This document shows positions 24,200-35,744 of a DNA stretch of 46,476 nt, piece by piece; within the stretch, counting starts at the first letter, position 1, and each line of letters opens with the position of its first letter. The stretch is from assembly GCA_903881425.1 (NCBI GenBank), contig CAIRTF010000112.1:1-46476 (forward strand), in the 5' to 3' direction. The notes below the pieces were generated by a model. That model ran no database searches and was not told the origin of the DNA. It was given only the letters and a program-made list of their open reading frames with translations. Position numbers and translations under genes: made by a program. Source of the stretch: an uncultured Chitinophagaceae bacterium (GTDB lineage: Bacteria > Bacteroidota > Bacteroidia > Chitinophagales > Chitinophagaceae).

Positions 24200-25090
24200 T
24201 TAAACATTCTCTGCTGCTAATAAAACTTGCCAGGCATCCTTAACATTTCCTTTTTCTAATAATTCTTTGGCATACAAATGCAATTCATTTTCCATTTCAT
24301 TTGGGTTGACAGAAAAGTATTGAATGATGCTTTTTAATTTGTCATCTTCAAATGCAGGATCAACAATTGGCAAATTTTGTATATTGGCCAATTGCCCTAA
24401 ATCGTTTCCGGATAAGGTTTTGCTTTGTTTTATGCCTTCGGGTAAAGCATCTACGCCAATCCCTAATTCTTTATTAGGCTTAGGAACAGTGAACAAATTC
24501 TGTTCATTTACAACCGTGTAATAATCGCCGCCTAACCTGGCCACCTGTTGTAATTTTCTTTGATCGATCATTGTTCCCTCGGTATTTAAAATAGTTTCAT
24601 CAATATGCATAAACAGCACTTCTGCAATCACTAATTGTCCGGCACCGGCTTGATCTCCTAAACTTTTTACTTCATTTACTTTGCATTCCATTTTTATTTT
24701 GGCTTCTTTCACCATCGGAGGTTGAATGATGCTTGCTTTTTCTTTTGTAAAACCTGATTTAACAAATTCATCTACCCCTTTTGGATATTCGCAACTGCTT
24801 AAACTCATTTGTTGAACCATTGCATAATCACAAATATTGATGACTACTTCAGGTACTTCCAAAACATTTTGTAAAGTATGTTTAAGATGATTATCTCTTC
24901 CGCTTCTTGACGGAGAAAATATGACAATAGGGGGATTAGTAGAAAACAAATTAAAAAAACTAAAGGGACTTAAATTTACATTTCCATTTTTATCAATCGT
25001 ACTTGCAAATGCAATAGGACGCGGAGCAATAGCATTTTGTAACCATGCAGCTCTTTGTTGAATGGGTAGTTCTGTTAAATCAATCTTCAT
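24200..25090 (-). CDS. Flavin reductase-like FMN-binding protein
   Basis: 296 residues. The N-terminal two thirds is a flavin-reductase split barrel with RPIAFASTIDKNGNVNLSPF (about 24-43), FNLFSTNPPIVIFSPSR and a substrate/flavin segment SCEYPKGVDEF. The remaining C-terminal part (about 215-296) is helical and not recognised as a separate domain. Its start overlaps the stop of the FAH-family gene (ATGA, 4 nt), so the two are translationally coupled. The family supplies reduced flavin or acts as FMN-dependent oxidase; the pairing with a fumarylacetoacetase-like enzyme suggests aromatic degradation. Confidence 0.87.
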   Translation of the reverse strand: MKIDLTELPIQQRAAWLQNAIAPRPIAFASTIDKNGNVNLSPFSFFNLFSTNPPIVIFSPSRSGRDNHLKHTLQNVLEVPEVVINICDYAMVQQMSLSSCEYPKGVDEFVKSGFTKEKASIIQPPMVKEAKIKMECKVNEVKSLGDQAGAGQLVIAEVLFMHIDETILNTEGTMIDQRKLQQVARLGGDYYTVVNEQNLFTVPKPNKELGIGVDALPEGIKQSKTLSGNDLGQLANIQNLPIVDPAFEDDKLKSIIQYFSVNPNEMENELHLYAKELLEKGNVKDAWQVLLAAENV

Positions 25091-26097
25091 ACATTTTTCT
25101 TTTTTGCTAAAATGGAGATATCACTTTCTTCTTTTACAATTGTATTCGTCAATTTACCCAATCCATCAATTTCCATTTCAATAACATCACCTTCCTGTAA
25201 CCATTGTTCAGAATAATTAGGATTATTTAATTTTCCTGTGCCATTCAATTCTAAAAAACAACCTGTGCCAACTGTTCCGCTGCCAATCACATCTCCCGGC
25301 AATAATGTTGCACCATAGCTGCAACGTTCAATAATCTCAGCAAAAGTCCAATCCATATCACTAACATTTCCTTCGCTCACTTGTTTGCCATTTACTGAAC
25401 ATTTCATTTTTAAATTCCAGGATTTGCCTACATGATTTTCCTTAGCCGGCATTTCAAAATTTTCTAACTCATCCAATGTAACTAAACAAGGCCCGATAAC
25501 TGTTGAAAAATCTTTTCCTTTTGCAGGGCCAAGATTCAATAACATTTCATCCATTTGTAATCGCCTAGCACTCATATCGTTCATGATCATTAATCCGCCA
25601 ATATAATTATCTGCTTCTTCAGCAGGAATATTTCTTCCTTGTTTGGCAATGACGATGGCAACTTCTAATTCAAAATCTAATTTTTCAAAATGATCGGGCA
25701 TGCACTTTATTTCTCCGGGTCCCTGAATACTATGATGGTTGGTAAAATAAAAGATAGGATATTGATCAAACTCCGGAATCATTGGTACGTTTCGGTTTCG
25801 GCGTGCTGCAGCCACATGTTGGCGAAATGCATAAGCATCTCTGCAACTGGTTGGAAATGGAACAGGTGCCAATAACTCAACATCATTTAATGAAATTCCT
25901 TTGGTGGTATCTATTCTCCCATCAATAATAGCGGCATTTACTTTTTCGGCGATTGGATAAGTCTCTTCCCAAAAATTCAAGAACATATTCATGCTGTTGG
26001 GCAATTCAGGATGAACAGCATCACAATCATATAAAAAGTCATTCACTAAAAATGCTAATTGATCATGGCCATCGCGTAGGTATGAGACTAATTTCAT
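25087..26097 (-). CDS. Fumarylacetoacetate hydrolase (FAH) family protein
   Basis: 336 residues, a two-domain bacterial FAH homologue. The N-terminal part to about residue 110 is variable; the C-terminal catalytic domain shows the metal and active-site segments FELEVAIVIAKQGRNI, GLMIMNDMSARRLQ, KDFSTVIGP and SGTVGTGCFLELNG. Such enzymes cleave C-C bonds of 1,3-diketo acids in tyrosine or other aromatic breakdown. Homogentisate dioxygenase and HPPD genes are absent here, so the pathway is not fixed. First gene of an operon with a perfect palindrome and a TAnnTTTG element just upstream. Confidence 0.9.
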   Translation of the reverse strand: MKLVSYLRDGHDQLAFLVNDFLYDCDAVHPELPNSMNMFLNFWEETYPIAEKVNAAIIDGRIDTTKGISLNDVELLAPVPFPTSCRDAYAFRQHVAAARRNRNVPMIPEFDQYPIFYFTNHHSIQGPGEIKCMPDHFEKLDFELEVAIVIAKQGRNIPAEEADNYIGGLMIMNDMSARRLQMDEMLLNLGPAKGKDFSTVIGPCLVTLDELENFEMPAKENHVGKSWNLKMKCSVNGKQVSEGNVSDMDWTFAEIIERCSYGATLLPGDVIGSGTVGTGCFLELNGTGKLNNPNYSEQWLQEGDVIEMEIDGLGKLTNTIVKEESDISILAKKKNV

Positions 26098-26098
26098 T

Positions 26099-26115
26099 CG
26101 ACAAATAATTTGTCG
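26099..26115. promoter_or_regulatory. 17-bp perfect palindrome, candidate repressor operator of the FAH operon
   Basis: Arms CGACAAAT and ATTTGTCG around a single A. It begins 2 nt upstream of the FAH start codon and ends 1 nt from the -7 element, so it spans the expected transcription start and the whole short leader. A dimeric repressor bound here would block initiation. No regulator gene lies next to it. Confidence 0.6.
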
Positions 26116-26116
26116 T

Positions 26117-26124
26117 CAAAGGTA
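26117..26124 (-). promoter_or_regulatory. -7 promoter element (TACCTTTG) of the FAH operon
   Basis: Exact TAnnTTTG on the minus strand, 20 nt ahead of the FAH start. The next downstream bases form the 17-bp palindrome. Confidence 0.5.
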
Positions 26125-26134
26125 ATAGAAACAA

Positions 26135-26425
26135 TTACCACTTTTCATCTTCTGGAATATCGTTTGGAGGTGTGTTATATTTTTTTCTGGATTCGGCTTT
26201 TTGTTGTTGTCTTTCAATAATTAATTGCGCAATAATCACAGCTGCGTCTTCATTGGGATGTTCTTGCAAGATCTGTTTTAATTTTTTTTCACTAACATCA
26301 ACTCGGTACAGGAGTTGTACCAATTTAGAGAAATCAGAAAGAATCAGCCGATTAATATAACCGGCCAATTCATTCAGTGAGAGTTTGTGTAACTCAATAT
26401 CTTCCGAAGGGGAATTATTTTCCAG
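26135..26425 (-). CDS. Small conserved-looking protein of unknown function, no ATG start
   Basis: Up to 96 residues. The frame has no ATG at all: after an in-frame stop the only usable starts are CTG at 26425 (giving MENNSPSED), other CTGs, and TTG at 26368 (77 residues). I favour a start near 26425 because the sequence ENNSPSEDIELHKLSLNELAG reads like a natural N-terminus and overlaps the upstream stop by 11 nt. The body is helical (INRLILSDFSKLVQLLYR, then SEKKLKQIL), ending in an acidic Pro-rich tail. A start mutation or sequence error is possible. Downstream of a small membrane protein gene on the same strand. Confidence 0.6.
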   Translation of the reverse strand: MENNSPSEDIELHKLSLNELAGYINRLILSDFSKLVQLLYRVDVSEKKLKQILQEHPNEDAAVIIAQLIIERQQQKAESRKKYNTPPNDIPEDEKW

Positions 26426-33765: not shown

Positions 33766-33787
33766 TATTTAGACAAATGTCTAAATA
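33766..33787. promoter_or_regulatory. Candidate SdpR/ArsR operator: 10-bp inverted repeat
   Basis: TATTTAGACA and TGTCTAAATA, perfect arms around AA, ending 16 nt upstream of the preferred GTG start of the ArsR-type gene. The length and AT-rich character match ArsR-family operators. It supports autoregulation of the SdpR-SdpI unit. Confidence 0.65.
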
Positions 33788-35623: not shown

Positions 35624-35672
35624 GGTGAATGTGCAGATGAGAAGATGTGCAGATTTGCAAATGAAATGAATA

Positions 35673-35706
35673 AAAAAAGCGCTGAAATTTTTCAGCGCTT
35701 TTTTTA
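35673..35706. terminator. Strong bidirectional terminator
   Basis: AAAAAGCGCTGAAA pairs with TTTCAGCGCTTTTT almost perfectly, with A-run and T-run on the two sides. It lies between the convergent deoxyhypusine-synthase-like and M28 peptidase genes. Confidence 0.92.
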
Positions 35707-35744
35707 TTTGTATATGATAAAAATATTTTCCTTTAATTTTTCAA

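Follow-up and report, generated by a model that had tools for sequence, protein, structure and literature searches.

A perfect palindrome at the predicted start site of an FAH-flavin reductase operon, possibly a genus-restricted operator

The promoter of the FAH-flavin reductase operon of an uncultured Chitinophagaceae bacterium carries a perfect 17-nt palindrome, and a congener carries it at the same place with both arms intact. The best explanation is that the palindrome serves as an operator of this operon restricted to the genus, a reading drawn from sequence comparison to which we give a probability of about one half and which we rank ahead of a chance palindrome in a conserved promoter and of an RNA hairpin. 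Positions are those of the window, i.e. the whole stretch of 46,476 nucleotides that was analyzed, and the features are listed in Table 1.

The palindrome reads CGACAAATAATTTGTCG, with 8/8 arm pairs around a 1-nt centre. On the minus strand, a single base separates it from the -7 element TACCTTTG on the upstream side and another from the ATG of the FAH-family gene (26097-26095) on the downstream side, which confirms the claim of an earlier note on this DNA that a perfect palindrome lies between an exact -7 element and the start codon. In Flavobacterium psychrophilum, according to PMC9723704, the -7 box spans -12 to -5. Such a spacing puts the start site at about 26112, within the palindrome, and gives a leader of 15 nt. 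Both marks of a Bacteroidota sigma-A promoter are thus found, a TAnnTTTG -7 box and a short 5' UTR, the latter being predicted. No intrinsic terminator (a stem followed by a T run) was detected in 25900-26300, and no Rfam 15 family exceeded its gathering score at the palindrome, the one sub-threshold match lying elsewhere (26340-26414).

Table 1. Features of the operon, its promoter and the ArsR-type gene in the window
Feature	Position	Strand	Remarks
Proposed operator: perfect palindrome CGACAAAT-A-ATTTGTCG, 8-bp arms, 1-nt centre	26099..26115	.	Arms unchanged in congener (L016)
Operon promoter -7 element TACCTTTG, exact TAnnTTTG	26117..26124	-	Consensus and position after PMC9723704
Predicted 15-nt 5' UTR, start site near 26112	26098..26112	-	Start site predicted
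First gene: FAA_hydrolase family protein, 336 aa	25087..26097	-	PF01557, E 2.6e-56
Second gene: flavin reductase-like, 296 aa, 4-nt overlap with first	24200..25090	-	PF01613, E 2.4e-15
Third co-directional gene: FA_hydroxylase family, 258 aa	23401..24177	-	PF04116, E 1.3e-25
Upstream co-directional gene, 77 aa, family not assigned	26135..26368	-	Stop 37 nt before FAH start codon
ArsR-type gene	Inferred GTG start 33749, stop 33483	-	Adjoins SdpI-like membrane protein gene (named by eye)

The operon is probably one for the breakdown of aromatic amino acids. Its FAA_hydrolase protein scores below the cut-offs of all the NCBIfam equivalogs listed. A protein search returned 592 relatives of FAH, the best 80 of which were compared: the 77-aa upstream gene has a tblastn match in 50 of these 80, and the FA_hydroxylase gene has one near FAH in 6 of them. 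The congener possesses a second FAH, 67% identical, whose open frame is broken by an internal stop (L169:11-3269, G001:C487) and which precedes homogentisate dioxygenase-like and phenylalanine hydroxylase-like genes (the hydroxylase named by eye), with a short flavin reductase-like ORF, also named by eye, between the second FAH and these HmgA-like and phenylalanine hydroxylase-like genes. The own genome holds one strong FAH, an HPPD over cut-off and an HmgA-like gene below cut-off. These genes and the neighbours of the second congener FAH support a homogentisate-pathway role for the operon without proving it. When the earlier note proposed an "aromatic or lipid" metabolite as ligand, the aromatic half fits, because the second congener FAH adjoins the two aromatic-pathway genes, while the lipid half can point only to the downstream fatty-acid hydroxylase-family gene. 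In the congener, a beta-lactamase-like gene of 361 aa (named by eye; L016:6006-7091) separates FAH from the flavin reductase gene, whereas the two genes overlap in the window. Literature searches returned nothing on an operon of flavin reductase and fumarylacetoacetate hydrolase in Bacteroidetes, only work on IclR for a Bacteroidetes homogentisate regulon and, for both 8-mer arms, no title on this operon among the matches listed.

Conservation inside the genus was read from a single congener, at the orthologous locus L016, where protein identity is 85-86%. The palindrome sits there at the same place with 0/16 arm bases changed, its sole change being the unpaired centre base. Identity of the FAH gene itself at codon positions 1, 2 and 3 is 0.89, 0.94 and 0.64, so that the intact arms and the centre-only change, set against third positions only 64% identical, favour the operator reading. 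As a background we compared the own genome and the congener over the 46 nt upstream of each of 39 orthologous starts. The FAH upstream region ranks fourth of 39 by identity (0.91), and its last 25 nt, at 0.96, share first rank with two other genes. FAH alone among the 39 keeps -2 to -18 unchanged outside the centre, a further point for an operator, yet some unchanged 17-mer occurs within 40 nt of the start in 9/39 regions, which shows that high promoter conservation between these two species does not require a palindrome. The window contains 12 perfect palindromes with arms of at least 8 bp and a spacer of 0-4, and two of them keep all their arm bases in the congener, namely the FAH one and one located 17 nt before the ArsR-type regulator gene. 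Of the other ten, four have flanks that align at no more than 0.50 identity and one has flanks at 0.64, so these five are weak comparisons. A 40-nt inverted repeat with 18-bp arms and a T run was also observed at 35669-35708; it keeps 13/18 pairs in the congener and is likely a bidirectional terminator between convergent genes.

The conserved palindrome may nevertheless be fortuitous, in a promoter-to-start stretch maintained for promoter or translation-start reasons and with no protein reading its symmetry, an explanation that we consider possible but doubtful. Part of its support comes from counts. Palindromes built like this one, with perfect 8-bp arms around a 1-nt centre, number 4 in the window versus 2.4 expected from 40 dinucleotide shuffles, 9 of which reached 4. 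A palindrome lies within 43 nt of the start in 2/267 genes (window plus 13 stretches, 295,576 bases of the own genome), close to the frequency in random composition-matched 43-mers (111/21600 for spacers of 0-4; 33/21600 for a spacer of 1). Among the 32 sampled genes with a recognizable -7 element, one has a start-proximal palindrome, and this is the window FAH gene. These counts together indicate that such a palindrome is rare at a given promoter, yet about as frequent as chance predicts. "Unlikely by chance", as the earlier note put it, is thus correct for one given promoter (the 33/21600 random 43-mers) and incorrect for a window of this size, where one is expected somewhere. The absence of a regulon and the equal conservation of other promoters of the species pair over 25 nt are also in favour of chance. 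Against it stand the exact fit at the predicted start site, the changes confined to the centre with none in the arms, and the singular conservation of -2 to -18 (1/39).

Outside the genus the palindrome is lost from view: it is absent from the FAH promoters of 79/80 relatives (best 80 of 592) and present only at L016, a result that also speaks for chance. The orthologue at L017, 84% identical, has the -7 element and not the palindrome. Since TAnnTTnG is found 12-28 nt before the ATG in 53/80 relatives (best 80 of 592), the promoter position has been kept and the palindrome has not. The FAH promoters of the relatives do not exceed other promoters from these loci in palindrome score (mean 4.19, n=53, versus mean 3.98, n=56; p=0.38), a comparison that took in the 53 FAH loci and left out the 27 without a recognized -7 element. 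A different perfect 16-nt palindrome occupies the same place at L032; as one unrelated case in 80 (best of 592) it is uninformative, and a shared palindromic habit of FAH promoters was not found. The exact 17-mer occurs in 7/394 genomes of the family. Two of these occurrences, those already known, are the FAH locus, three fall at one homologous position within a single genus, one lies in a terminator-like hairpin between convergent genes and the last is within an ORF that by eye resembles a pseudouridine synthase; on these contexts, a family-wide regulon sharing the 17-mer was rejected. Poor conservation among close relatives that retain the operon, which the earlier note named as refuting its idea, is seen outside the genus and not in the one congener compared.

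A regulon was also sought inside each of the two genomes. At up to 3 mismatches, the own genome contains 17 other sites (18 with the FAH site) versus 21 for the reversed control, and the congener 24 in all versus 19 for its control. Context was read for all 17 other sites in the own genome and for 5/23 in the congener. In the own genome 16/17 lie inside ORFs and none before a regulator gene; one match with 2 mismatches (L002) falls on codons 2-7 of a different gene and looks like coding sequence. The regulon was rejected as chance, and within the own genome the FAH-operon site appears to stand alone. The search for the same palindrome near a regulator gene, suggested by the earlier note, thus came back negative. 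The "TetR, MarR or GntR type" proposed for the regulator fared no better when these three families were profiled in the own genome (TetR_N, MarR_2, GntR): no GntR domain was over cut-off, four TetR_N matches were, and two of six MarR_2 matches were, one of the two being the window ArsR-type gene; at the 10 TetR/MarR loci even the best sites differ from the palindrome by 4 to 6 mismatches, so none is similar to it. A Pfam scan of 15 window proteins revealed no regulator beside the operon, the sole regulator being the ArsR-type one about 7 kb away. An exact half-site ATTTGTCG is found at L096:1399-1406 in the own genome, 31 nt before the HPPD start (GTG 1438), while among 266 sampled genes the only one with an exact half-site within 100 nt of its start is the FAH gene itself. 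HmgA has no exact half-site, and the congener yielded no HPPD. The HPPD half-site is suggestive but a post hoc observation.

The ArsR-type gene is preceded, 17 nt upstream, by the perfect palindrome TATTTAGAC-AAAT-GTCTAAATA (33766-33787), which has the look of an autoregulatory operator. Like the FAH palindrome it is perfect, located in a promoter region and intact in the congener, but it adjoins its own regulator gene, whereas the FAH palindrome has no adjoining regulator among the window proteins scanned, and it is the stronger operator case of the two. As a likely true operator kept by the same species pair, it offers a comparison that favours the operator reading of the FAH palindrome. The arms and the centre-to-GTC spacing differ between the two palindromes, so one dimer is unlikely to bind both, and the window ArsR regulator is an unlikely binder of the FAH site.

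If the FAH palindrome is an operator, a homodimeric helix-turn-helix regulator would bind from about -3 to +14, across the start site, and would block RNA polymerase at the TAnnTTTG promoter until released by its ligand, probably a metabolite from the tyrosine/homogentisate route. What is observed is the sequence, its position and its conservation in the congener; we infer the start site, the binding, the repression and the ligand of this model. A site for a dimeric repressor, as the earlier note proposed, is the best reading of a symmetry placed at the predicted start site and intact in the congener, while the regulator class and the ligand named with it are not supported. Start-site operators are known for dimeric one-component repressors of the TetR, MarR and ArsR types. 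The FAH palindrome resembles them as a perfect inverted repeat of operator length at the start site of a catabolic operon, but differs by lacking a linked or identifiable regulator, a second site and an autoregulated copy. The palindrome is an element of an ordinary kind. Where PMC8222616 lists operators, that of HmgR (IclR family) of Pseudomonas putida is given as ATTACGTTATTCGTAAT, a palindrome-like sequence that controls homogentisate-pathway genes and, like the FAH palindrome, has 17 nt. The two sequences differ, and the FAH palindrome fits neither of the IclR consensus sequences quoted there.

The operator reading is favoured by a perfect symmetry placed exactly between the -7 element and the ATG, where there is no terminator. 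A dimeric-repressor operator requires a two-fold symmetric site at the promoter, which is present; a cognate regulator gene, linked or with a similar site of its own, was found neither among the 15 window proteins nor at the 10 TetR/MarR loci, nor did the own genome yield a regulon of further sites before functionally linked genes. The reading is weakened by the lack of a second site and of an adjoining regulator and by the 79/80 relatives (best 80 of 592) without the palindrome, and likewise because the relatives' FAH promoters are not extra-palindromic, two other promoters of the pair match it in identity over the last 25 nt and a single congener is at hand.

The palindrome could instead act in RNA, which we judge unlikely. 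A presumed read-through mRNA would form a 7-bp hairpin one base before the AUG that excludes ribosomes and insulates FAH, while the mRNA from the operon's own promoter, lacking the first three left-arm bases, cannot form the hairpin and would be translated. RNA starting at 26115 indeed has a folding energy of -7.2 kcal/mol and a 7-bp stem beside the AUG, versus only -1.1 kcal/mol from the predicted start at 26112, and the upstream gene is co-directional, its end lying 37 nt from the start codon. However, longer RNAs show no unusual stability (z -0.15 and z -0.67), 12/200 shuffles of the 46-mer fold equally well, and no pairs show compensatory changes. Still more improbable is a switch gated by the start site, in which the hairpin closes the AUG in the upstream-gene mRNA only and the own-promoter mRNA, cut in the left arm, stays open; were it true, promoter choice alone would set translation, in a phylum without Shine-Dalgarno control.

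The case illustrates the need for conservation controls before a perfect promoter palindrome counts as evidence. If the palindrome is an operator, it would be a bait for finding its regulator in a genome where TetR, MarR and GntR genes are few, and would point to the way in which a homogentisate-type operon is regulated in one Chitinophagaceae-like genus.
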